A stretch of DNA of 23,355 nucleotides from a virus: the IMG/VR virus record IMGVR_UViG_3300046517_000247, positions 1 through 23,355 of that record. One strand, given 5' to 3'. Below, piece by piece: positions 1-23,355 of the stretch. The notes beneath the pieces were generated by a model. The model had not been told where the DNA came from and did not search any database. It worked only from the letters and a program-made list of their open reading frames with translations. The stretch's first letter is position 1, and each line of letters begins with the position of its first letter. The position numbers and the translations under genes were made by a program.

Positions 1-1734
1 GTTGTCCAGCCGCCAGCACCAGTAGCGGGTGCCCCGCTGATCCAGCCCCGGTCTCGCCAGCGCACGCCGCTTGTCAGGTTCCGTGCTTACCAGCCTACTG
101 CGCGGACCCTGTTTGAGACCGAGATTGCTGGCGCGGTTAGCGGCCTCGTCACCGGGGTTGCGTCTGCTGTCACGGTAGCGGGCGGGCTAGGTACCTTCTC
201 AGCCGCAGCCAGCGTGACGGGCGTTGGTGCTCTGGTCACGGTCGCGGGCGGGCTCGGTACGTTTGCGGCCGGGGCTAACGTGACAGGTGTAGCTGCTGCC
301 GTTGCTGTGCTTGGCGGTGTGGGCACGCTGTCCGGAGGCGCGAGCGTTACCGGGGTCGGCGCTGCCGTGACCGTAGCAGGCGGCACAGGGACGCCTAGCG
401 GCTCTGGCGGTGCGAACGTTACTGGCGTGGCCGCCCAGATCACGGTCGCAGGCGGAATTGGCACCCTATCGGCCGGGGAGAACCTGTCCGGCGTCGGCGC
501 AGCGGTCACCGTGGCCGGAGGAGCCGGGACGCCTTCAGGCGGAGCGGCAGTCACCGGGGTCCGGGCTGCGATCACGGTAGCTGGCGGCGCGGGAACTACG
601 GCTGGCTCCGCAGCCGTGACTGGCGTAGGCGCGGCCATCGCCGTGACTGGCGGGGTCGGCACAGCTTCCGGGAGCGCTGCGGTCACGGGCGTCGGTGCCC
701 GAGTCACGGTAGCCGGTGGGCTCGGTACGCTCAGCGCCGGTGACAACCTCGTGGGCGTCGGATCCCAGATTACTGTGGATGGCGGGGTCGGCATAGCGTT
801 TGGCGGCTTCAGCGGCGCAGCGAACGTTGCTGGTGCGGCTGCCCTCGTCACCGTGGCTGGCGGGGTCGGTACAACAAGTGCTGGGGCGGCTGCTACCGGG
901 GTAGGCGCTAGCGTCACGGTCACAGGTGGCGTGGGCACGGCTAGCGGCGCTGCGACCGTCACTGGTGTCGGCTCTGCTATCACGGTCGCCGGCGGAGCAG
1001 GGACTGCGTCCGGTGGGGCCGCTGTGGCCGGTATCCGGGCGGCCATCAATGTGTCCGTAGTGTCCGGTACGGCTTCGGGCGGGGCGGGGGTTACCGGGCT
1101 CGGGGCTAGCGTGACGGTGGCTGGAGGCGCTGGCACAGCCTCGGCAGGGGCTAACGTGGCCGGTGTGGCCGCACAGATAACCGTCGCGGGCGGGGCGGGC
1201 ACGCCTAGCGGGGCTGGCGCCGGGACAATCAGCGGGGTAGCGGCTCTAGTGACCGTGACCTGTGGAGCGGGCACGCTGACGACCGGGGGCAACGTAGCCG
1301 GGGTGGCAGCCCTGGTTACGGTGACTGGTGGCGCCGGTACACCGTCGGGTGGCGCGACGGTGACTGGCGTCCGAGCAGCCATCACGGTGACTGCCGGGGT
1401 AGGCATCCCGGGCGGAGGGGCTAAGGTCACCGGGGTAGCGGCGTCCATTCTGGTGAACGCTGGCGTAGGCCAGCTATCTGCCGCAGCCAATCTGGCTGGC
1501 GTCGCTGCCCTGGTGACCGTCCTGGGCGGCCACGGCACCGTGCTCGGGGGTGGTGCGGTCTTCCCTGGCACCGTCGTCATCACGCACTCGGCTGGAAGCG
1601 TTGTCGTCAGTAACACGACCGTGTACGCGGTCACGGTCAGCAACCGGGCCGGGAGCCTTCAGATAAGCAATCGTTCGGGACGAGTGGATATCTCCCAGAG
1701 GACGGGCGATGTCCAGGTTGGGAACCTGCCATGA
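1..1734 (+). CDS. Repetitive structural protein, 5'-truncated (probable capsid fibre/decoration or other virion protein)
   Basis: The frame is open from base 1 to a TGA at 1732-1734, so the true start lies before the window. The visible product is 577 residues. A proline/arginine-rich lead-in (VVQPPAPVAGAPLIQP...) of about 50 residues is followed by 21 tandem units of about 22 residues with consensus VTGVGAAVTVAGGAGTxSGGAA, then a C-terminal tail of 9-10-residue units such as RAGSLQISN, RSGRVDISQ and RTGDVQVGN. There are almost no charged residues in the repeats. The alternating V/T and G/A pattern suggests short beta strands with tight turns, that is a fibrous beta-solenoid-like fold; this is inference. 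It sits immediately upstream of head-tail connector genes and overlaps the next gene by ATGA, so a virion role is likely. I do not recognise a named family. The opposite strand is also open for 518 codons, an effect of the repeat composition. Confidence 0.75.
   Translation, partial: VVQPPAPVAGAPLIQPRSRQRTPLVRFRAYQPTARTLFETEIAGAVSGLVTGVASAVTVAGGLGTFSAAASVTGVGALVTVAGGLGTFAAGANVTGVAAAVAVLGGVGTLSGGASVTGVGAAVTVAGGTGTPSGSGGANVTGVAAQITVAGGIGTLSAGENLSGVGAAVTVAGGAGTPSGGAAVTGVRAAITVAGGAGTTAGSAAVTGVGAAIAVTGGVGTASGSAAVTGVGARVTVAGGLGTLSAGDNLVGVGSQITVDGGVGIAFGGFSGAANVAGAAALVTVAGGVGTTSAGAAATGVGASVTVTGGVGTASGAATVTGVGSAITVAGGAGTASGGAAVAGIRAAINVSVVSGTASGGAGVTGLGASVTVAGGAGTASAGANVAGVAAQITVAGGAGTPSGAGAGTISGVAALVTVTCGAGTLTTGGNVAGVAALVTVTGGAGTPSGGATVTGVRAAITVTAGVGIPGGGAKVTGVAASILVNAGVGQLSAAANLAGVAALVTVLGGHGTVLGGGAVFPGTVVITHSAGSVVVSNTTVYAVTVSNRAGSLQISNRSGRVDISQRTGDVQVGNLP
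148..1557 (+). repeat. 21 tandem 66-bp coding repeats
   Basis: Units start at 148, 214, 280, 346, 418, 484, 550, 616, 682, 748, 826, 892, 958, 1024, 1090, 1156, 1228, 1294, 1360, 1426 and 1492. Eighteen units are exactly 66 bp. Those at 346 and 1156 are 72 bp and that at 748 is 78 bp, so every length change keeps the reading frame. Units have diverged at the DNA level but keep the GTx-ACx-GGx-GTx opening codons. The array encodes the 22-residue protein repeat. Confidence 0.9.
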
Positions 1735-3127: not shown

Positions 3128-3531
3128 GCGGGGTGACGTATAGCCGTTCCGGACCGTTCTTCGATCCGGTGGTTCGCGATGGCACTATCAGGCACTATTG
3201 CGGGCACACCGAGGGCGCGATCGGCGATGACGGGGTGTCGATGGTCCAGGCATACCTGCCGGGCTCGTACAGGCGGGATCGGCCTGATCCGCATCCTGGG
3301 CTCTACGAGAGCTCGATCCATACCGAGCGGTCTGTCGTCGACCACCTGATCATTACCGACACCCCCGTGGTTTACGGGCCGTGGCTGGAAGGAGTAGGCA
3401 GCCGTAACTATCCGGTAACTAGGTTCGCCGGGTACCACACATTCCGCAGAGTCAGTCAGCTGCTGGATTCCATGGCCGAAGTAAAGGCCGACTCAGAACT
3501 CACACCCTACGTGGAGAGACTCAATGCCTGA
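3124..3531 (+). CDS. HK97 gp10-like head-tail / tail completion protein
   Basis: A 135-residue protein. I place the start at ATG 3124, which overlaps the adaptor stop by ATGA, rather than at the in-frame GTG at 3076, which would give a 48-nt overlap. The C-terminal half (VYGPWLEGVGSRN, then TRFAGYHTFRRV) is characteristic of the HK97 gp10-like proteins that Streptomyces-type phages encode between adaptor and tail terminator. These act at the head-tail joint or in tail completion. The 8-nt overlap with the next gene shows tight coupling. A head-tail stopper role is the main alternative. Confidence 0.68.
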   Translation: MSGVTYSRSGPFFDPVVRDGTIRHYCGHTEGAIGDDGVSMVQAYLPGSYRRDRPDPHPGLYESSIHTERSVVDHLIITDTPVVYGPWLEGVGSRNYPVTRFAGYHTFRRVSQLLDSMAEVKADSELTPYVERLNA

Positions 3532-13579: not shown

Positions 13580-13807
13580 ATGTCAGAACCAGACCGTGAA
13601 GCCACGGAGCAGGAGGACTGGCGAGATCGGCTCGGACGGTTCGCCGGGCTCGATCCGGACACCGATGACCGGCCGCAGGTGATGCCGGTACTCGAGCCGG
13701 AGCCGGGGCGGCAGACACACGCGGCGGATCACGAGCGCGCGGCACTATGGGACCGGGCTGGAGGTGACGATGATGAGCCTGATCCGGGAGTGGATAGCAA
13801 GCCCTAG
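13580..13807 (+). CDS. Small acidic protein (hypothetical)
   Basis: A 75-residue protein behind a clear GGAGGAACA leader, ATG 13580. It is strongly acidic (DREATEQEDWRDRLGRFAG, DDDEPDPGVDSKP) and proline rich, with no predicted membrane helix. It overlaps the endolysin start by about 35 nt in another frame. Its place just before the endolysin is where holins or lysis regulators often lie, but the composition does not fit a holin. Function is unknown. Confidence 0.65.
   Translation: MSEPDREATEQEDWRDRLGRFAGLDPDTDDRPQVMPVLEPEPGRQTHAADHERAALWDRAGGDDDEPDPGVDSKP
13760..13767 (+). promoter_or_regulatory. Ribosome binding site deciding the endolysin start
   Basis: GGAGGTGA lies eight bases before ATG 13773 and five before ATG 13770, counted from the end of GGAGG. 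The alternative GTG at 13764 sits inside this site and is therefore unlikely as the start. Confidence 0.7.
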
Positions 13808-14630
13808 CTACTCATCCCGTGGAGGGGCCACGGTTGACAAAATCGTCCTCCACACGGCCGAGGGAGCCCGCACGATTGAATCGCTGGGCAGCTTCTTTGC
13901 CAACGGCGCCAACCAGGTCTCGTCCCATACCGGGGCCGATAACCAGAAGGGGAGAATTGGCGAGTACGTCACCCGGGGCAACAAGGCCTGGACTGCCGCG
14001 AACTACAACCCGTACTGCGTGCAACTAGAGCTCTGCGGGTTCGCCTCGTGGACCAGGGATATCTGGATGAACCAGAACCGGAACATGCTCAACAACTGCG
14101 CTCAGTGGATCGCAGAGGAGTCGGCAAAGTTCGGCATCCCGATTACCAAGCTGACCCCGGGTCAGGCCCAGGGCAACGGCCGGGGCGTGTGCCAGCACGT
14201 AGACCTCGGGGCCGGGGGAGGGGGCCACCACAACTGTGGTCCTGGCTTCCCGATGGATGACGTGCTCAAGTGGGCGCGCGAGGGGCAGCCCAAGCCGCCA
14301 CCCGACAAGCAGTTCCTCTACTACGATGGAGACCATACCATGCAACTTCAATTCTCGGCCGGTAGCGACGGGAACGCGCCGCGCGCTCTGGTCGTCATAC
14401 CCAACCAGCACTCCGACGGCAAGTCCCGGATGGTGTTCGGCTGCGCCCAGCCGTCCGCGCTCCGGGTTGACATGATGGGCTTCGGCGCCACCGCCAACCT
14501 GGATCTGTCCTCCGACATGGGCCGGCAGGGCTTCGGGATCCAGGACGGATGCCATGCTGTCACGGTCCGCCGTGACTCTGGCACCGAGCCGGTCTCGATG
14601 GACTATTCGCGCAACAAGTCTGACATGTAA
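13773..14630 (+). CDS. Endolysin, N-acetylmuramoyl-L-alanine amidase
   Basis: A 285-residue protein; ATG 13770 is an equally possible start (286 aa). Residues about 15-170 form an Amidase_2-type zinc amidase, which cuts the bond between MurNAc and the peptide stem: KIVLHTAEGART with zinc-ligand candidate H27, QVSSHTGAD, YCVQLELCGFASWTR, CQHVDL (H142) and GHHNCGPGFPMDDVLKWA (H152/C155 candidates). Most actinophage amidases I recall have a D-P pair where this one has N-C before GPGFP. After a PKPPP linker, residues about 180-285 form a beta-rich domain (FLYYDGDHTMQLQFSAG) of no family I know, presumably wall binding. There is no signal peptide, so export would need a holin. Confidence 0.88.
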   Translation: MSLIREWIASPSYSSRGGATVDKIVLHTAEGARTIESLGSFFANGANQVSSHTGADNQKGRIGEYVTRGNKAWTAANYNPYCVQLELCGFASWTRDIWMNQNRNMLNNCAQWIAEESAKFGIPITKLTPGQAQGNGRGVCQHVDLGAGGGGHHNCGPGFPMDDVLKWAREGQPKPPPDKQFLYYDGDHTMQLQFSAGSDGNAPRALVVIPNQHSDGKSRMVFGCAQPSALRVDMMGFGATANLDLSSDMGRQGFGIQDGCHAVTVRRDSGTEPVSMDYSRNKSDM

Positions 14631-14650: not shown

Positions 14651-14878
14651 ATGAGCGTACCCTATAGCGAGAATGCCGTGGCCCCGATCACCGACCTCCA
14701 GGAACCAGTCCGGAAGCAGGTGATCGGGGTCATGGTGCGCGTTAGCGTGCCGGAAGACGTCGTACCTGAGGATGTTGTCCGGGACCTCCGGCACAGCATC
14801 GAGTTTGGTCAGGCCGAGATCAGTCTGGCCTATGTTCTTGCGCCTCCCGTTATCGAATCGCCACCCGATACGCCATAG
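14651..14878 (+). CDS. Small hypothetical protein at the strand-switch point
   Basis: A 75-residue protein, ATG 14651, on the plus strand but separated from the endolysin by a possible promoter. The sequence (VRKQVIGVMVRVSVPEDVVP, SLAYVLAPPVIESPPDTP) has the amphipathic strand and helix pattern of a small folded protein. It overlaps the convergent NlpC/P60 gene by 29 nt. There is no Shine-Dalgarno, so translation may be leaderless. An antisense frame of 103 codons also exists here, so the coding call is moderate. Confidence 0.55.
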   Translation: MSVPYSENAVAPITDLQEPVRKQVIGVMVRVSVPEDVVPEDVVRDLRHSIEFGQAEISLAYVLAPPVIESPPDTP

Positions 14879-15302
14879 TCGGGTGCCACCAGCCGGACGG
14901 GCGGTGCCAGCCAACCCTGGTGCCGCTCTCCAGCGCGCCGAAGGTTCCGTGCCGGGTCTTGAGCTCGACGTGGCCGGTGCCGTAGAACATCAGGTCACCA
15001 CGGCGCGCGTCGCGGATGCGTATGCGGTAGAGGCGGCCGGACGCCAGCATGCTGTAGGTTGAGTGGGGCAGGCTGATCCCGAGCGCACGCGCGTAGGCCG
15101 CCATCACCGCGCCGGAACAGTCATAGCACGTCGGCCCGGCTCCTCCCCAGCAGTACCAGTGCCCGGCTTCGTGGTTCTCGGCCCAGTGGAGCGCAGCCAG
15201 GGCCTGGGCTGCCGTGTCGGCGCGGGCCGGGGCCGAGGGGATCGCTAGCGTGCAGACGATCAGGAATGCGAGTGCGCTGAATAGCGCTATCCACCTTGTC
15301 AT
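14850..15302 (-). CDS. Secreted NlpC/P60 cell-wall peptidase
   Basis: A 150-residue protein. Residues 1-28 form a Sec signal peptide (RW, a hydrophobic core LFSALAFLIVCTLAI, then APARA before the likely cleavage). The rest is a compact NlpC/P60 domain that hydrolyses peptide cross-bridges of peptidoglycan: CYDCSGAVMAAYA with catalytic C62, GDLMFYGTGHVELKTR with catalytic H111, and the usual GI-LP-S-Y segment between. It starts two bases after the Rpf-like gene's stop (TGATCATG) without a clear Shine-Dalgarno, so it is probably translated by reinitiation and co-expressed with it. Export does not need a holin. Extra cysteines (C51, C59) may form a disulfide outside the cell. Confidence 0.85.
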   Translation of the reverse strand: MTRWIALFSALAFLIVCTLAIPSAPARADTAAQALAALHWAENHEAGHWYCWGGAGPTCYDCSGAVMAAYARALGISLPHSTYSMLASGRLYRIRIRDARRGDLMFYGTGHVELKTRHGTFGALESGTRVGWHRPSGWWHPTMAYRVAIR

Positions 15303-15304
15303 GA

Positions 15305-16072
15305 TCAGCAGCCGTCGTATGGCGACCAGGCGGCAGTTCCGCTCTGGGCGTACTCCTGAGAGAATGCCTGGTTCTGCTCAGCGACCGAGGCGTTCTCCGG
15401 CAGTCCGCCGTGCCCCAGCGCCTGCCAGGTGGACGGCAGGAAGCCGTACAGGCCACCCGCTCCGCTAGACGAGTTCACCGCCGACGGATTCCCGGCGCTC
15501 TCGGCCTTGATGACGCATGCCTGGAATCCGCTCCCGCCGGAGTAGCTGACTATCGGCTGGGCCGGGCTGGCTGGCTGGACGGCCGGGGTAACGGCCGGGG
15601 CGGCTTCGACGTGCTGTGGTGACGCCAGGACGGGCGCGGGCCGTGGAACGTGGCGCAGAGCCATGAGCAGGATCCAGTCCTTGCGCGGGTGCCATGGCGA
15701 CAGCCGGAGCTTCTGGCCGGGCTGTAGCACATTGGGATTGTGGATCTTCTGCCGATTGGCGTACCACAGAGATGGCCATCGGCTCGCATGGCCGTAGACC
15801 TTCCTAGCGATTGAGCTGAGCGTGTCGCCCTGCCTCACCTTGTACTCTGGGAATACCTCGTGAGGCCTGAGGTACCTTGTCGTGTAGACGGTGTCCCGTC
15901 CAGGGACCGAGGCTCCGCTCGGCACCATGCTGACTGATAGAACAGTTGTCCCTGCCAGAACCGCTACAGCGATTGACAGGGCAGCGATGCGATGATCCTT
16001 GCGACTTACGTGTCGGCCTTGCCTCCGACTAAACAGCCGGGTTACCGCAGATATCCTCCGTACACGTTTCAC
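15305..16072 (-). CDS. Membrane-anchored LysM plus Rpf-like transglycosylase
   Basis: A 255-residue protein with GTG start at 16072, four bases after GGAG. An arginine-rich cytoplasmic end is followed by a membrane helix or signal anchor at residues 29-50 (IAALSIAVAVLAGTTVLSVS). Residues 76-124 are a LysM domain (YKVRQGDTLSSIARKVYG, NPNVLQPGQKL) that binds the glycan chain. A Pro/Ala linker leads to residues 183-255, a resuscitation-promoting-factor-like transglycosylase domain: CVIKAESAGNPSAVN with catalytic E191, SGAGGLYGFLPSTWQALG, and the terminal AWSPYDGC; C186 and C255 probably pair. It would cleave the glycan backbone outside the membrane. It is followed by the NlpC/P60 gene. Confidence 0.88.
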   Translation of the reverse strand: MKRVRRISAVTRLFSRRQGRHVSRKDHRIAALSIAVAVLAGTTVLSVSMVPSGASVPGRDTVYTTRYLRPHEVFPEYKVRQGDTLSSIARKVYGHASRWPSLWYANRQKIHNPNVLQPGQKLRLSPWHPRKDWILLMALRHVPRPAPVLASPQHVEAAPAVTPAVQPASPAQPIVSYSGGSGFQACVIKAESAGNPSAVNSSSGAGGLYGFLPSTWQALGHGGLPENASVAEQNQAFSQEYAQSGTAAWSPYDGC

Positions 16073-16296
16073 GCTTCTCCAGTTGAGAGGGTTGTGTGCA
16101 GCCTACTAGGTCTATTCGGCGCACCTGTTAACGCCATAAGTTACGCCCCGATTACGATCCGAAGCTAGCCCCCGTTACTGAAACGTTACGGAGCCCTAGG
16201 GTTGCCTGTGCCGGCTCGGAGCCCCGGTGGGTCACCTATGTGTGGGCTAGCGGTATACCCTCGGGAGCGGCCACACAGGCTCCGTGCCGGACCCAT
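16073..16296. other. Intergenic region with repeated hexamers
   Basis: These 224 nt separate the small-gene operon from the cell-wall enzyme pair. They hold the GTTACG-like repeat cluster, a GGTATACC palindrome (16252-16259), and a GGCTCGGAGCC near-palindrome (16213-16223). No ORF with a convincing start was seen. It is the likely site of a leftward promoter for the Rpf-NlpC pair. Confidence 0.6.
16127..16190. repeat. GTTACG-like repeat cluster, possible operator
   Basis: GTTAACG (16127), GTTACG (16140), ATTACG (16151), GTTACT (16174) and GTTACG (16185) are all in the same orientation. Two pairs are spaced 11 bp and the pairs are 34 bp apart (16140 to 16174), close to whole helical turns, as expected for a protein binding one DNA face. 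Confidence 0.45.
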
Positions 16297-16774: not shown

Positions 16775-19027
16775 TTAGTCTGGGTCCACTACAAACAGCC
16801 TGTCCACCATTACCGGGGTACCGAACCCGGCGATGCGGTTGCCCTCTGCGATGACGACATCGTGGTTCACGGATATGCCCTCAATGATCCGCTTGAGCCT
16901 TGGGAACACCCATCGGCTGACCCGTAGGTACACCTCTTCATCGGTCGTGTCGTAGCAGCGCAGGGAACAGTACGCCAGCAGGTCCGGCCGCTTGAGCGTC
17001 CTGAGGATGTCCTCAACTTCCTCGCCGGTACGGCTGCGTCGGTTCTCCACCGCGTCCTGGTAGTTGCGCTGCTTGACGATGCCCGCGTAGATCACGCGTG
17101 GACCCTTGCCGTAGTTGCTTCGGGCGTTAGCTCCGTAATCCTGCTGGACCGCGATGGCGGCTACCTCGGTGCCGGTGTGCGTCGGGAGCGGTACCCGAAA
17201 CTGGCCCCGGAGCCACTTGTTCACCCGGGCCATGCGGTCCTCTGTGACGCGCAGCCCGAATGGGTCATCGGCTACCGAGAAAGCCTGCATGGTCTGGATG
17301 GTCTTCGGACCTATGCCCTTGATGGCATCCAGCTGGCCCCAGTCCTCATAGTTACCGAACTCGGCCTTGTCGGCCTCGATGTTCGCAGCCGTCTTGTCGC
17401 CGATGCCGGGGATCTGCTGCCAGCCAGCCACGATGCCAACATCGAGCACGGCTCGCCAGCTACGGCTGCTCTGGTTCAGCCGGGGCGGCACGATGGCGAT
17501 GCCGTGCGCCTGGGCGTCCTTCATCAGCTTGTAGGCCTGCTCCTCGTCTCCGGTCTTGCTCAGCGCCGCTGCGAAGAACGCGGTGGGGTGATGGACCTTG
17601 AGCCACATGCACCAGTAGCCGATCAGCGTGTAGCTAACGGCGTGGGCCGTGACGAACGAGTACGTTCCCGAGGTCACCATCAGCTTCCAGATGCGGTCGG
17701 CTAGCTTCCGGTCCATGCCGTGTAGCCGGGCGGCACCCTCGAGGAACTTCTCCTCGCTCATCTGGAACGCGGCCTCGCCTACCTTCTTGCTGATGATGCG
17801 CCGGATCTGCCCGACTGAGAACCAGTCGAACCCGCCCAGGTCCCGGAGGATCTGGAGGATCTGCTCCTGGTAGATGATCTGGCCCTTAGTCCGCTCAGTC
17901 ACGGCGTCCACGATCGGGTGTAGCCGGGCTGCCTTCTGACGACCGTGCCTTACGTCCACGTAGGTAGCGGTCGTGCCCGAGAACAGGGGCCCTGGGCGGC
18001 TGAGCGCATTGACGTCGGTGAGCTCGGTGAAGTCCCGGGCCTGAACATCGCGGGTAACGAGCCGGGTGGCCCGTCCCTCAAACTGGAACACGGCTACGAC
18101 GTCGGCCGCGCGGAATGCGGCCAGTACGTCCTTGTCATCGAGCGGGAGCGCATAGAGATCCTCCAGGCTCATCCCGACTGCAGCTAGCGTCCGGGCGATG
18201 ATGCTCATGGTCGTCAGCCCCAGGAAGTCCAGCTTGATAGCACCGGCCGCCTCGACGTCATACTTGTCAAGGCTCATTACCTGCACGCCGTTACGCTCAT
18301 AGATGGCACAGATGTCGGTGAGTGGCCCGTTCGCCACGACCAGCCCGGCCGCGTGTACGCTCATGCCCCGGACATTACCCTCGAGCCGGGTTGCCTTCCA
18401 CAGATCCGGGAATGCCTCGAACGCAGCCTTGGCGTTCGGGAACATCTCAACGGTGTCTTCTAGGGTGGCGTCAAACCGGCTGTCACCGCCCGAGCGCTCG
18501 ACGACCAGGTTGCTTACCGTCTCCTTGGCTGCGCTCGGGATGCGGTAGACGCGGGCTACATCAACCAGTGCGTTCTTACCACGGTATCGTATGAAGTTGC
18601 CAACCTGCCCCACGCATCCGCGTCCGTACTTGGATTCCAGGTACTCCCGTACTTCTCCCCGCCGCTCGTCTTCAAAGTCAGTATCGATATCAGGCGGGTC
18701 CGCACGGGACGAGTCAAGGAAACGCTCAAAGAGCAGTCCGGGGTGACGGTACGGGTCCACCTCGTGAATGCGGAGGAGCCACGCGACAACCGAAGCAGCG
18801 ACGCTCCCTCGACCCGGCCCAACAACAATGCCGTGATCTTTCGCCCATCGGATCGCGTCTGATACCACAAGGAATACATCCTGAAAATCCTTCTCTGTGA
18901 TGAGGCCGAGCTCATAGTCGACCCGGCTTGCGTACCAGTCACGTTCTACCTTGGGCCGCTTACCAACGCCCCGGTAGGCCCACCCGTACCGAGCCCACTG
19001 AAGCAGGAGCTCGCTGGAGGTGGTCAT
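16775..19027 (-). CDS. dnaE: DNA polymerase III alpha subunit, palm/fingers/HhH/OB protein (split DnaE, C part)
   Basis: A 750-residue protein. I choose ATG 19027, which overlaps the previous stop by ATGA, over an upstream GTG. It carries the whole catalytic core of a bacterial C-family polymerase: VGPGRGSVAAS (about 69-79), DPPDIDTDFEDERR with catalytic aspartates 113-117, GAIKLDFLGLTTMS with D267, NALSRPGPL, IIYQEQILQ, and YSFVTAHAVSYTLIGYW. Residues about 539-587 hold two helix-hairpin-helix DNA-binding motifs (IPGIGDKTAAN and IKGIGPKTIQ), and the last 110 residues resemble an OB fold. The PHP domain that normally starts DnaE is missing and is encoded by a separate gene upstream. It would replicate the phage genome together with the PHP protein. 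Confidence 0.92.
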   Translation of the reverse strand: MTTSSELLLQWARYGWAYRGVGKRPKVERDWYASRVDYELGLITEKDFQDVFLVVSDAIRWAKDHGIVVGPGRGSVAASVVAWLLRIHEVDPYRHPGLLFERFLDSSRADPPDIDTDFEDERRGEVREYLESKYGRGCVGQVGNFIRYRGKNALVDVARVYRIPSAAKETVSNLVVERSGGDSRFDATLEDTVEMFPNAKAAFEAFPDLWKATRLEGNVRGMSVHAAGLVVANGPLTDICAIYERNGVQVMSLDKYDVEAAGAIKLDFLGLTTMSIIARTLAAVGMSLEDLYALPLDDKDVLAAFRAADVVAVFQFEGRATRLVTRDVQARDFTELTDVNALSRPGPLFSGTTATYVDVRHGRQKAARLHPIVDAVTERTKGQIIYQEQILQILRDLGGFDWFSVGQIRRIISKKVGEAAFQMSEEKFLEGAARLHGMDRKLADRIWKLMVTSGTYSFVTAHAVSYTLIGYWCMWLKVHHPTAFFAAALSKTGDEEQAYKLMKDAQAHGIAIVPPRLNQSSRSWRAVLDVGIVAGWQQIPGIGDKTAANIEADKAEFGNYEDWGQLDAIKGIGPKTIQTMQAFSVADDPFGLRVTEDRMARVNKWLRGQFRVPLPTHTGTEVAAIAVQQDYGANARSNYGKGPRVIYAGIVKQRNYQDAVENRRSRTGEEVEDILRTLKRPDLLAYCSLRCYDTTDEEVYLRVSRWVFPRLKRIIEGISVNHDVVIAEGNRIAGFGTPVMVDRLFVVDPD

Positions 19028-19206
19028 CCGTACCGGCCCTCGGCCCTGGCGCGCCACCGGGCGGCGATCTCCAGCGGCCACACCCAGAACGGGAGCTTGC
19101 GGGTCGGCTTTGGCGGGCCACCACGCGGGCTGGCCGTCCGGTGCCCGGTAACTACCGAGCGGATCTCCAGCGGATCACCCGGCACATCCGGCTTGTTCAT
19201 GTCCAT
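19024..19206 (-). CDS. 60-residue basic protein between the two DnaE halves
   Basis: A short protein MDMNKPDVPGDPLEIRSVVT... ending RWRARAEGRYG. ATG 19206 has AGGAGGAGGA nine bases upstream; ATG 19200, which overlaps the PHP gene stop by ATGA, is an alternative. It is basic and proline rich, with one hydrophobic segment (KLPFWVWPLEIAARW) too short and interrupted for a standard membrane helix. It overlaps both flanking genes, so it is a translated cistron rather than a spacer. No homing-endonuclease, intein or intron signature is visible. It could bridge the two polymerase parts, but this is speculation. Confidence 0.65.
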   Translation of the reverse strand: MDMNKPDVPGDPLEIRSVVTGHRTASPRGGPPKPTRKLPFWVWPLEIAARWRARAEGRYG

Positions 19207-20273
19207 GGTTCCAGATCCTCCTCCTGGATTGGGTAGCGCAGCCGGTCTGCCTTCGGGAGCGTCACGTTGCACATATCGGCTATGACCCTGCTCTGCCGGA
19301 TGGCCTCCCATGCTGACCGGTCGTTCACCCCGGTCCTTACTAGCCTACCGTGTAGTTCGTCGTCAGTAGCGGGTAGGGTGAGCGGTACATCGTAGTTCCA
19401 TTCTCGCATAGCGTCATCAACGCTAGCCTTACCCCGGTGAACCGCGTGCAGCACCGCCTGCATCTCGGCGTCCTTCATCGCCGGGTAGTGAACGTCGTGC
19501 GTCACGACCAGCGGTACGCCCATGTCCTGGCTCAGCACGGCGTAGGCTGCGTTCATCGCGCTGGACCGGGGTAGCTCGTAGAACGGCTGGATTTCCAGGA
19601 AGTAGCGGTCCCCGAAGATGGCCCGGTACCGCTCGATCACATCTCGGGCGGCGTCGAAGTCTGGTTCATCAATGTGCTCTGGCGTACCCTTGCCGCCCAG
19701 TAGCGCACAAGCAAGCTGCGAGCCCGAACATCCGGAGAGCACGACCAGGCCCCGGGCATGAGCCACAAGAGCTGCACCTGACACAGTAGGGTGGTAGTAG
19801 AAATCCCGGTAGCTTTGCGTGACGAGCCGGCAGACATTACGGTACCCTTCCGTGTTGGCGGCCAGGATCGTGAGGTGGTGCTTGAACTGAGTACGTCCTC
19901 CGATTTGCCCCTTTCCATGGCATATCTGGCATTCCCAGTCAGGGTCTAGTTCCCGGCCGTCCAGGTCAATGACGGGGAGTGGCTCAGGAGCACGACCGCT
20001 GCCCCCGCACGCCCTGCATTCACCTCCCAGGTCGGTCGGGCCGCAGTAGGCCTCTACCCCGAAGATTGGTTTGATGCCTGCGGCCAGCGCTGCCTTCTCG
20101 AGCTGGAAGTGAGAGCTGATGTTGCCATGTTCAGTCAGCGCTATAGCCCCGTACCCTAGCTCGGCTGCGCGGGCTACGTGCTGGGCCGGGGTCCCGAAGC
20201 CATCACCGAAACTGAAGGTAAAGAGTGGTGATGCAAATTGACAAAGTTCACGCTCACCCGGAACCACCTCCAT
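19197..20273 (-). CDS. dnaE: DNA polymerase III alpha PHP-domain protein (split DnaE, N part)
   Basis: A 358-residue protein; ATG 20273 overlaps the previous gene by 20 nt and is the first good start before the PHP fold, but no strong Shine-Dalgarno is present. It corresponds to the DnaE N-terminus: AAELGYGAIALTEHGN (H49), IFGVEAYCG (E74), FKHHLTILA (H132/H133), LVVLSGCSGS and VVTHDVHYPAMKDAEMQ (D260, H262). The HxH metal motif at the start of the fold is replaced by S15-P16-L17, so exonuclease activity is probably lost. Residues about 87-122 hold an insertion with two DnaJ-type zinc motifs, CRACGGSG and CQICHGKG. It ends shortly after MCNVTLPKADRLRYP, the PHP-palm linker, with TGA. Confidence 0.88.
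   Translation of the reverse strand: MEVVPGERELCQFASPLFTFSFGDGFGTPAQHVARAAELGYGAIALTEHGNISSHFQLEKAALAAGIKPIFGVEAYCGPTDLGGECRACGGSGRAPEPLPVIDLDGRELDPDWECQICHGKGQIGGRTQFKHHLTILAANTEGYRNVCRLVTQSYRDFYYHPTVSGAALVAHARGLVVLSGCSGSQLACALLGGKGTPEHIDEPDFDAARDVIERYRAIFGDRYFLEIQPFYELPRSSAMNAAYAVLSQDMGVPLVVTHDVHYPAMKDAEMQAVLHAVHRGKASVDDAMREWNYDVPLTLPATDDELHGRLVRTGVNDRSAWEAIRQSRVIADMCNVTLPKADRLRYPIQEEDLEPWT
19216..19225 (-). promoter_or_regulatory. Strong ribosome binding site for the 60-residue ORF
   Basis: On the minus strand AGGAGGAGGA precedes ATG 19206 by nine bases and lies inside the end of the PHP gene. It supports independent translation of the ORF between the DnaE halves. Confidence 0.65.
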
Positions 20274-20724
20274 CGCCCATCTTCTTGAACCGATCCTCGA
20301 TGTACTTCTGGATGGCATCGAGATCAGTCGTGGGCATCTCGATCCTCGGGAACTCAGCCGGGCCGGGGCTGAGTTCAATCTTGACTCGCTCCCAGTCGAT
20401 TTGCTGGTACAGGCCCTTGGCGATCTCCTCCCTGGCTGGCATCTGGATGTCATTAGTCAGCCTCGGGTCCGGAGGGTTGGTCCAGTAGTCGCTGACTCGC
20501 ATCTGCTCGAACCCGCCGAGCTCAAGGGCCGGGGTGTCCTCGTCGTCCCGGGGCACGGTGACGCGTTCGGAGCAGACGTCGCACAGGAGATCTTCCTGGG
20601 TCGCCTTGCGAGGGCAGCTGCCCTCGGCCCCGTATCCGCAGCGGCACTGCCAGTTCTCGTTCGCTGCGATCTCGAAATCTGGGTGCCTTTCTTGCCACTC
20701 AGCCGGGTGGGTCCAGCAGCACAT
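20254..20724 (-). CDS. Cysteine-rich putative zinc protein (hypothetical)
   Basis: A 156-residue protein with ATG 20724 behind AGAGGTAGG. An in-frame GTG start 234 nt upstream would run through the 46-residue gene and is unlikely. The start MCCWTHPAEWQERHPDFEIA leads to a cluster CRCGYGAEGSC (C27, C29, C37) and CDVCSERV (C48, C51), a plausible zinc-binding site. A helical C-terminal part ends DAIQKYIEDRFKKMGDGG. The start resembles small Cys-rich proteins seen in Streptomyces hosts and phages. It overlaps the PHP gene by 20 nt, so it is co-expressed with the polymerase. Function is unknown. Confidence 0.75.
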   Translation of the reverse strand: MCCWTHPAEWQERHPDFEIAANENWQCRCGYGAEGSCPRKATQEDLLCDVCSERVTVPRDDEDTPALELGGFEQMRVSDYWTNPPDPRLTNDIQMPAREEIAKGLYQQIDWERVKIELSPGPAEFPRIEMPTTDLDAIQKYIEDRFKKMGDGGGSG

Positions 20725-21384: not shown

Positions 21385-22532
21385 CACGCCCTCCTCGCTG
21401 CACCCTCGGTGAGGGGCTCCATCGGATTGATGTCTACCCACATGTCCGGAGCCTCGCCGGCCCGGTGGTGCGCCTCGACGCGATCCCGAATGGAACACCA
21501 CCGATCGGTGGCCGCCATGAACTCGCACTTCCCGGTCTGGTAGCAGACCGGCTTGAACAGCTGGCTGACGATGGCGTCGGTCTGCCAGTCATGCAGGTCC
21601 TGGAGGGCCCTGACGATCTCGCGCCAGACCTGCTTCCACTCAAATTGTGCCTGCGAGCACAGCCGCATCCCGGCGTGCTCGGCCAGGTTGCGCAGGTTGG
21701 TCTTGTAGTGGACCCGGGTTGTGATGTTCGTGGGCAGCAGCGAGCGGGCGTCCTCGGCCGGGATGCCTACGTTGACTAGCCCTAGGTAGGCTGAGGCTGC
21801 CTGGTACACGGCCGTCTGCCATACTTCCCGCTTCGGGTCGTCATCGGCCAGGCTGGCGATGCTGGGCGGCATGGCTACCTCGAACGCGGCGTTGTCCTTG
21901 ACGGCGAACCGCATCGACTCCTGGACGAACACGGCCGTGCGCTGCCGCACTAGCTGGTGGGTGAACGCACGGGTCACGTTCTCGATCAGGAAGTGGAAGT
22001 CAATGAACTCCAGCCCGGCCGAGAGGGTCGTCTTGGTCATGTCCTCCAGCCAGTGTTCGGCTACCTCCCGGCTGATCTCGGCCGGGTCGTGAACCACCCG
22101 GCCCCGGTAAAGCTCGGTTGCAGCCGCCATGACCTGGAGCGGGTCTTGCGTCATGCTTATCAGGGTCACCCGGGGCGTGACATCCCCATCCTCCGCCCGG
22201 TACATCGCCACGTCTGCGAACCTGGCTACTTCGCTGCTGTGCTCCCTGGGCTCGCCTACGATCACCACCTTGCTTTTGTCCTCTTGTGGTGGCCGGTTGC
22301 GCATAAAGGACCCGAGCGGAATCTTGTCGCTATTCCCGTGTCCTCGCAGCCACCCTACCCGGCATAGCACAGAGGCATTTGATGACACCTCATCAACAGA
22401 CTGCCCGGTATCCACTGAGATTACGTGCCTATCGACCATTACCCCGATAGGACGTTCCCGAAAGTATTCCAGAAGCTCCTTCTCGCCCTTCCACGTAGGC
22501 GGCCTACCCTGCCACAGTCTGCGCTCAGACAT
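21384..22532 (-). CDS. thyX: Flavin-dependent thymidylate synthase with N-terminal extension
   Basis: A 382-residue protein. ATG 22532 (GGAGG six bases upstream) is preferred over ATG 22535. The ThyX core spans residues about 120-345: FLIENVTRAFTHQLV followed by RQRTAVFVQESMRF (196-209), which corresponds to the family motif RHRxxSxNxxSxRY, then SLLPTNITTRVHYKTNLRNL and MRLCSQAQFEW with the substrate-binding Arg region. ThyX makes dTMP from dUMP using FAD, NADPH and methylenetetrahydrofolate. The first 120 residues are an extension absent from ordinary 220-250-residue ThyX proteins and match no domain I know. Several motif positions differ from the consensus, as in other actinophage ThyX proteins I recall. 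Confidence 0.88.
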   Translation of the reverse strand: MSERRLWQGRPPTWKGEKELLEYFRERPIGVMVDRHVISVDTGQSVDEVSSNASVLCRVGWLRGHGNSDKIPLGSFMRNRPPQEDKSKVVIVGEPREHSSEVARFADVAMYRAEDGDVTPRVTLISMTQDPLQVMAAATELYRGRVVHDPAEISREVAEHWLEDMTKTTLSAGLEFIDFHFLIENVTRAFTHQLVRQRTAVFVQESMRFAVKDNAAFEVAMPPSIASLADDDPKREVWQTAVYQAASAYLGLVNVGIPAEDARSLLPTNITTRVHYKTNLRNLAEHAGMRLCSQAQFEWKQVWREIVRALQDLHDWQTDAIVSQLFKPVCYQTGKCEFMAATDRWCSIRDRVEAHHRAGEAPDMWVDINPMEPLTEGAARRA

Positions 22533-23209
22533 CATCTTCCTCCGTTCACTTGCACGATTGAGCCGGTCAGGAACTCCGGGCCGTGGAGGACGTCATAGAC
22601 AACCTCGGCTACCTCGTCCACGGTGCCCCTCCGGCCTATGGGAGACTGGGATGCCTCGTACCGGGCTGAGGCCTCGGGGGTCCAGCCACGGAGCTCGGGC
22701 ACGGTCTTGTCGATGTACCTGGTCATCCCAGTCCCGTCGATCATCCCGGGACTCACCGCGTTGACCCGGACGTCCGGCGCTAGCTCGCGCGCCGCACACC
22801 GTACAGCGGCGTCCAGCGCGGCCTTGCTTGCGCAGTAGGCCATAGACGTCCGCATCGGCCGAGTAGCGGCATCGGACGAGATAGCCACCACAGAGCGACA
22901 CCGGTGGCCTCCGGCTGCGTTGTAGCCGGCCACGACCTGGAGCAGGCGCATGAAACCGGTCACGTTGACGTCCATGATGTCGGCGGCTGAGAACGGGTCC
23001 AGGTCCCTGATCCAGCTGAGCCGGTTCATCCCGGCCGAGTAGACCACGCCGTCAAACCAGGACTCATCATTGAAGTACCTATCCAGCTCATCACGAGAGC
23101 GGACGTCTATGGCCTCCCCGGTAGCCCGGACGTCATCGCCCATGAAGGCGCAGCGCTCCACTACGGCAGCCCCGATTCCGGACGTACCGCCTATTACCCA
23201 GACCTTCAT
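22532..23209 (-). CDS. Short-chain dehydrogenase/reductase (SDR)
   Basis: A 225-residue NAD(P)-dependent oxidoreductase. ATG 23209 has AAGGAG six bases upstream and overlaps the previous stop by ATGA. Classical SDR features are present: the dinucleotide-binding GGTSGIG (7-13), VYSAG in place of NNAG (56-60), N82 of the tetrad, ISS (110-112), YCASK with catalytic Y125 and K129, VNAVSPGMIDG, and a C-terminal VNGG. The best resemblance is to FabG-like reductases. Substrate is unknown. It is translationally coupled to ThyX, which suggests a role in nucleotide, folate or base-modification metabolism, but that is inferred from context. It may be of host origin. Confidence 0.88.
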   Translation of the reverse strand: MKVWVIGGTSGIGAAVVERCAFMGDDVRATGEAIDVRSRDELDRYFNDESWFDGVVYSAGMNRLSWIRDLDPFSAADIMDVNVTGFMRLLQVVAGYNAAGGHRCRSVVAISSDAATRPMRTSMAYCASKAALDAAVRCAARELAPDVRVNAVSPGMIDGTGMTRYIDKTVPELRGWTPEASARYEASQSPIGRRGTVDEVAEVVYDVLHGPEFLTGSIVQVNGGR

Positions 23210-23355
23210 CTGCGCTCCTTGATTGCCCCTAGTATTTCCTTGCGCCACGGATCGTCCGTGAAGTCATACACGCGCGGGTACATATCGGTGTAGCGGTTGT
23301 ACGGCTGATCCCGGAGGTAGGCGGGCAGCCCAAGGACGGTAGCCTGAACAACCAG
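23206..23355 (-). CDS. C-terminal end of an unidentified gene (truncated by window edge)
   Basis: The minus-strand frame is open from the window edge to TGA at 23206-23208, giving the last 49 residues of a protein (...LPAYLRDQPYNRYTDMYPR, ending DPWRKEILGAIKERR). The stop overlaps the SDR start by ATGA, the same coupling seen at other junctions in this block. The fragment is too short to identify; a nucleotide or sugar enzyme would fit the context. Confidence 0.65.
   Translation of the reverse strand: MVVQATVLGLPAYLRDQPYNRYTDMYPRVYDFTDDPWRKEILGAIKERR

Follow-up and report, generated by a model that had tools for sequence, protein, structure and literature searches.

An Exported Transglycosylase and NlpC/P60 Peptidase Gene Pair of Actinophages with a Candidate Host-Type Operator

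Why would a phage carry two exported cell-wall hydrolases side by side, and what would decide when they are made? The question is raised by an IMG/VR virus record of 23,355 bases from a soil bacteriophage (IMGVR_UViG_3300046517_000247), which was analysed as a whole and is called the window here. This phage is also present in two further contigs, with 99.96-100% identity. An earlier note on this DNA had described two adjacent minus-strand genes, one for a LysM and Rpf-like transglycosylase and one for an NlpC/P60 peptidase, and had likened them to RpfB and RipA of actinobacteria. Both ORFs were found at the coordinates that it gave. The features used below are the following:

13764..14630 (+), Amidase_2 endolysin, neighbor outside the pair, on the converging late strand
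14850..15302 (-), NlpC/P60 (C40) peptidase, export predicted; 150 aa, C62 and H111 present, L124 at the third position
15305..16072 (-), LysM and Rpf-fold lytic transglycosylase, export predicted; 255 aa, GTG start, catalytic E191
16073..16296 (-), 224-nt upstream gap with candidate promoter/operator; Rfam gave no match, and the RNA fold is unremarkable (z -0.19)
16140..16155 (-), second, weaker repeat of the same kind as the next, GTAAT-N6-GTAAC, beginning 83 nt upstream of the transglycosylase start
16173..16189 (-), operator candidate GTAACG-N5-GTAACG, 117 nt upstream of the transglycosylase start

Results

Two Wall Hydrolases in the Window

The minus strand holds, in order, an SDR/FabG-like gene, ThyX, DNA polymerase III alpha (two genes), two small ORFs, and the pair. 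The structural genes, the tape measure protein, and the Amidase_2 endolysin are on the plus strand. The NlpC gene lies 2 nt downstream of the transglycosylase gene; the two are therefore operonic, and this spacing makes translational coupling plausible. The pair had been thought to lie away from the late lysis gene; in fact, the amidase endolysin converges on it, and 219 nt separate the end of the amidase gene from the NlpC stop. The window, a 23-kb fragment, showed no holin-like ORF.

Other parts of the window deserve a brief description. DNA polymerase III alpha (16775-20453, minus strand) is encoded by two genes, PHP at 19197-20453 and NTPase/finger at 16775-19081, which lie 115 nt apart, and a sequencing error is an unlikely cause because the relative L013 has the same split. 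The FabG-like short-chain dehydrogenase beside ThyX (22532-23248, minus strand) has a PHROG match classed as moron, auxiliary metabolic, or host takeover. At 1-1734 (plus strand) stands a long Gly/Val/Ala-rich protein with repeats like VTVAGGxGTxSxGAxVTGV; its frame is still open where the window begins, and from base 214 onward neither Pfam nor PHROG gave a match.

The GTG start of the transglycosylase is preceded by GGAGAAG. Pfam matches to LysM (4.6e-10, aa 77-124) and to Transglycosylas PF06737 (6e-8, aa 188-250) both exceeded the curated cut-offs, the latter with 33.7 bits vs 27. E191 is present and was invariant across 18 aligned phage sequences. In an AlphaFold model, the best structural alignment of the catalytic domain was with RpfC (Z 11.8, 73 residues, 2.0 A); RpfB gave Z 11.6, and lysozymes were lower (Z about 8). 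By its Pfam score, Rpf fold, and catalytic glutamate, the protein belongs to PF06737. C186 and C255 probably form a disulfide. The protein had been called membrane-anchored; the export signal was found, whereas an anchor is not established, as the hydrophobic segment near aa 31-45 could be either a long signal peptide or a membrane anchor. RpfB orthology was rejected, as the RpfB traits DUF348 and G5 were absent and all Pfam families matched at E<=1 were of the LysM or transglycosylase type.

The 150-aa peptidase matched NLPC_P60 in Pfam (1.8e-13, 50.8 bits), and its fold was confirmed structurally. Its signal peptide is clear and includes an AXA-type site, and C62 and H111 were invariant in the phage alignment. 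The third catalytic position is L124, next to E125, where most relatives have H or Q, so the activity may be altered. RipA orthology was also rejected: the NCBIfam RipA model scored 31.2 bits against a cut-off of 625 bits, and the short protein has no RipA N-terminal region. The earlier assignments of both enzymes, of their three catalytic residues, and of the NlpC signal peptide were thus borne out.

The Pair in Other Viruses and in Bacteria

Relatives in viral contigs were found with a profile built from four NlpC sequences, and partners were detected with small HMMs of three domains (LysM, transglycosylase, and NlpC). Besides the window, 17 distinct contigs have a transglycosylase gene ahead of NlpC on the same strand, and a second scan added six, for a total of 24 with the window. 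The intergenic gap is longer in some of them (468 nt in L031, 204 nt in L027). Additionally, at least four contigs have the two enzymes fused: L036, L173, and L181 encode single-protein LysM-transglycosylase-NlpC fusions, and in L026 a different transglycosylase type is fused to NlpC. The search for the same pair in other phages, which the earlier note had proposed, was therefore productive, with these four fusions and with the cultured phages BRock and pSt2308 as well. The NlpC gene had no adjoining partner in L029, L015 (pair elsewhere in the contig), and L226. Export signals were detected in most pair members across the relatives. With the same HMMs, 80 bacterial loci with related NlpC genes had no adjacent or fused partner. 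That the pair is a non-accidental unit, in its enzymes and in their partnership, is solid.

The partner is Rpf-like in most contigs and SLT-like in L014, L022, L025, L030, L034, and L159; hence, what is conserved is a glycan cutter and not the Rpf type itself. Among other viral contigs, L186, L190, and L199 encode single proteins ordered transglycosylase-NlpC-LysM. A GDGDGDGxDMPC-like motif, which resembles the calcium-binding Excalibur motif, occurs in the transglycosylases of L014, L016, L018, L019, L021, L030, and L034; the window protein is without it.

Seven cultured phages carry exported NlpC genes. In the Streptomyces phages BRock and pSt2308, a canonical Rpf-LysM gene comes next, and the annotated endolysin lies about 1 kb further on; the Rpf-LysM proteins (BRock gp43, pSt2308 XTS03804) have a canonical Rpf domain and a C-terminal LysM. 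For Zuko, KimJongPhill, Galactica, Muntaha, and Teutsch, no Rpf neighbor was detected. Patelgo, Faust, and Shaeky have exported Rpf-like or LysM-SLT genes near ThyX.

Neighboring Genes and Lysis Functions

The genome G001 (L013/L135) shows full synteny with the window, and its converging amidase is 60% identical. The tail genes of G007 match those of the window; there, the pair follows on the same strand, at the site of the window's amidase and just after a 90-aa ORF with two hydrophobic segments (holin-like). In other relatives, the pair shares its strand with the genes around it: it precedes a terminase gene in L017, L021, L022, and L031 and has tail or portal genes close by in L025, L029, L030, L033, and L044. 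These neighbor annotations are partial, because greedy ORF calling overlooked pair genes in some loci. A place on the strand of the replication genes, as the earlier note had it, holds for the window phage and its closest relative; in the other relatives with placeable neighbors, the pair is on the structural strand, which speaks against a generally early location.

A separate Amidase_2 was found in the window, G001, G012, and G014, and a separate GH25 in G003, G007, G016, G021, G022, and, weakly, G017. The pair as the sole endolysin of G007 was rejected on account of its GH25 domain. PHROG matches to holin families beside the pair were weak (E 0.01-0.05) or absent.

A Host-Type Repeat Upstream of the Pair

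The upstream repeat GTAACG-N5-GTAACG is identical at 12/12 positions in the window and L013, whereas the spacers differ; its position is -117 in the former and -123 in the latter. It is a direct repeat in an 11-bp register, as would be expected of host MtrA regulon boxes. The C. glutamicum MtrA box is (A/G)TAACAATttn(A/G)TAACAAT, with nlpC and rpf2 among the targets (PMC3353115); in M. tuberculosis, rpfA-E and ripA belong to the targets of MtrA (PMC6265350). S. coelicolor MtrA recognizes direct repeats of 5-6 nt with a five-nucleotide separation (PMC5650626). The S. venezuelae GlnR box is GTnAC-n6-GTnAC, and binding of MtrA to GlnR boxes has been reported (PMC10704036).

A relaxed pattern, RTNAC-N6-RTNAC, was derived from the published boxes and scored within 300 nt upstream. 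It occurred in 7/22 pair loci vs 5/175 other ORF upstream regions (p=4.6e-5), to be read knowing that the pattern is short and was picked after the window had been inspected, and that the loci are incompletely independent because some relatives share ancestry. Shuffled controls never gave more than 2 loci. When window and L013 were excluded, the p value was 4e-5; of eight loci fetched after the pattern had been fixed, three had it (p=0.003). The pooled count was 10/30 vs 5/175. Most matches lie at -104 to -123, where start sites are ORF calls and the -122 of L173 depends on a start shifted by 93 nt. An unsupervised motif search also yielded a TAA-N9-AAC dyad. As a positive control, host NlpC genes carried the relaxed repeat in 18/77 cases vs 20/1416 tiles (p=1e-14). 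Upstream of the NlpC genes of the cultured phages, it was found in 3/7 vs 1/67 (p=0.002), namely before the lone genes of Zuko, KimJongPhill, and Galactica. In Zuko and KimJongPhill, it follows, by eye, a promoter-like TTGACN-N17-(T/G)ATAGC, an arrangement that would suit repression if MtrA binds.

The strict repeat is missing from about two thirds of the loci and is therefore not universal. The proposed host-style control is well supported statistically, and its agent would be ambiguous between MtrA and GlnR, as the box type is common to MtrA, GlnR, and other OmpR-family regulators. A limited literature search turned up no relevant work on Rpf in phages or on their use of MtrA. A ydaO or other riboswitch upstream of the pair was rejected, since no Rfam family matched and the fold was no better than that of shuffles. 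A sigma-70 promoter scan of the window's pair region found none.

Some repeats were observed elsewhere. A second perfect GTAAC-N6-GTAAC stands at 3404-3419 (plus strand), within the structural genes of the window. Palindromes like GTGATTCAC/GTGAATCAC recur upstream of the pair in L014, L030, L034, and L166 and are possibly another operator. RTNAC-N6-RTNAC repeats also precede NlpC genes in L059 and L060 (Lacticaseibacillus), with GTAACGGGGCTGTAAC in L059, and are presumably in keeping with a WalR-type box.

Terminators and Lifestyle

In L019, L025, and L159, terminators with perfect stems of 14-15 bp stand about 170 nt before the pair; that of L173 is farther off, and L019 has an additional one downstream of the pair. 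Upstream terminators were found in 4/28 loci vs 6/539 tiles, and none precedes the pair in the window. This suggests that, at least in those relatives, the pair is transcribed separately from the late genes that precede it. A search of 30 records gave no tyrosine or serine integrase, which is weak evidence because the records may be fragments and the search tool also missed the window's amidase. With this sensitivity in mind, lytic use is likelier than prophage expression, and a reading of the pair as a temperate moron was set aside on the same weak absence.

Discussion

The reading that we prefer, and which we hold to be evenly balanced against all others together, is an autonomously transcribed actinophage wall-hydrolase cassette that is wired to a host cell-wall regulator and whose products act together outside the membrane. 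The cassette would have its own promoter, independent of the late operon, and a host OmpR-family cell-wall regulator, MtrA or GlnR, may bind the direct repeat, so that the phage enzymes would be expressed like members of the host hydrolase regulon. Outside the membrane, the LysM-bound lytic transglycosylase would cut glycan strands, and the NlpC/P60 endopeptidase would jointly cut stem peptides. Most tentatively, the thick actinobacterial wall might thereby be loosened or remodelled before or alongside the action of an ordinary, separately kept endolysin. As to purpose, we lean toward such loosening over accessory lysis or host resuscitation.

An ordinary late lysis module is the strongest competitor, though we think it rather unlikely: under late regulation, the pair would be an accessory, signal-peptide-dependent endolysin set that supports the principal endolysin as infection ends. 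Many relatives do have the pair near tail, holin-like, or terminase genes. The G007 pair follows window-syntenic tail genes and a two-TM holin-like ORF at the amidase site, holin-like ORFs lie just upstream of the pair in L025 and L030, the pair of BRock and pSt2308 is near the annotated endolysin, and the window pair itself is 219 nt from the amidase stop. However, in L019, L025, and L159 strong terminators stand between the pair and the late genes before it, a gap with the host-type repeat precedes it in many loci, the window pair is on the strand opposite the late genes, and the holin matches are poor.

The remaining alternatives concern the living host. An RpfB-RipA mimic that resuscitates a dormant host, or keeps it growing for phage replication, would suit the Rpf fold of the window enzyme, the canonical Rpf of BRock and pSt2308, the host-type operator candidate, and the published RpfB-RipA synergy (PMC2262848). 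Yet the transglycosylase is SLT-like or of another type in many relatives; Rpf identity is therefore not the conserved feature, which argues against an Rpf-specific role, and we judge the mimic improbable. More improbable still is superinfection exclusion, or an alteration of the host surface, through early-expressed wall enzymes. The cultured Streptomyces phages Faust, Patelgo, Shaeky, and Zuko do carry exported hydrolases among ThyX and replication genes, but the 30 records without an integrase make a lysogen-protecting role less likely.

The cassette reading would have wider consequences. Should the repeat function as an MtrA-type box, phages would have tied a pair of wall-cutting enzymes to a regulon essential to the host, and such wiring would be a new way to time wall attack. 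That lytic actinophages carry host regulator-controlled hydrolases, with host growth or envelope state timing the opening or remodelling of the wall apart from holin-timed lysis, is a speculative extension that we would not expect to hold. The matter bears on how phages breach the thick walls of filamentous actinobacteria. Cultured Streptomyces phages give a testable system, BRock and pSt2308 for the pair and Zuko, KimJongPhill, and Galactica for a lone NlpC gene with the repeat. The pair also offers ready candidate synergistic hydrolases for study.

Comparison with Known Systems

RpfB has DUF348 and G5 domains, and RipA has a long N-terminal region. The phage pair resembles mycobacterial RpfB and RipA in joining an Rpf-fold transglycosylase to an NlpC/P60 endopeptidase, both exported and predicted to make complementary cuts, and in that both gene kinds are published MtrA targets; it differs in that its genes are adjacent and small, with LysM. 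Thus, the proposed resemblance stood for an exported, conserved pair with an MtrA-type repeat, and failed for orthology. The analogy gains regulatory support because the repeat before the pair is of the same type as the boxes of MtrA, which targets rpf, ripA, and nlpC (PMC6265350, PMC3353115). At most, the pair may be RpfB-RipA-like in its working, that is, in wall loosening, while non-orthologous.

The Streptomyces-type Rpf with LysM (BRock gp43) is likewise exported and combines an Rpf domain with LysM. In the window protein, the LysM is N-terminal, so the domain order is reversed, and a cysteine stands five residues before the catalytic E rather than one. The Borockvirus genes BRock gp44-gp43 and pSt2308 XTS03803-XTS03804 are also adjacent, exported NlpC/P60 and Rpf-LysM genes, but they differ from the window in reverse gene order, canonical Rpf, location on the endolysin's strand, and low sequence similarity.

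CwlT-type bifunctional muramidase/NlpC-P60 enzymes of mobile elements serve conjugation. By description, the fusions of L036, L173, L181, and L026 are like them, with a glycan cutter and NlpC/P60 in one exported protein. Mycobacteriophage LysA endolysins also combine peptidase and glycan-cutting domains, some with transglycosylase domains (PMC3314691); they are single proteins that usually reach the wall with the aid of a holin, whereas the pair has an exported two-gene layout.
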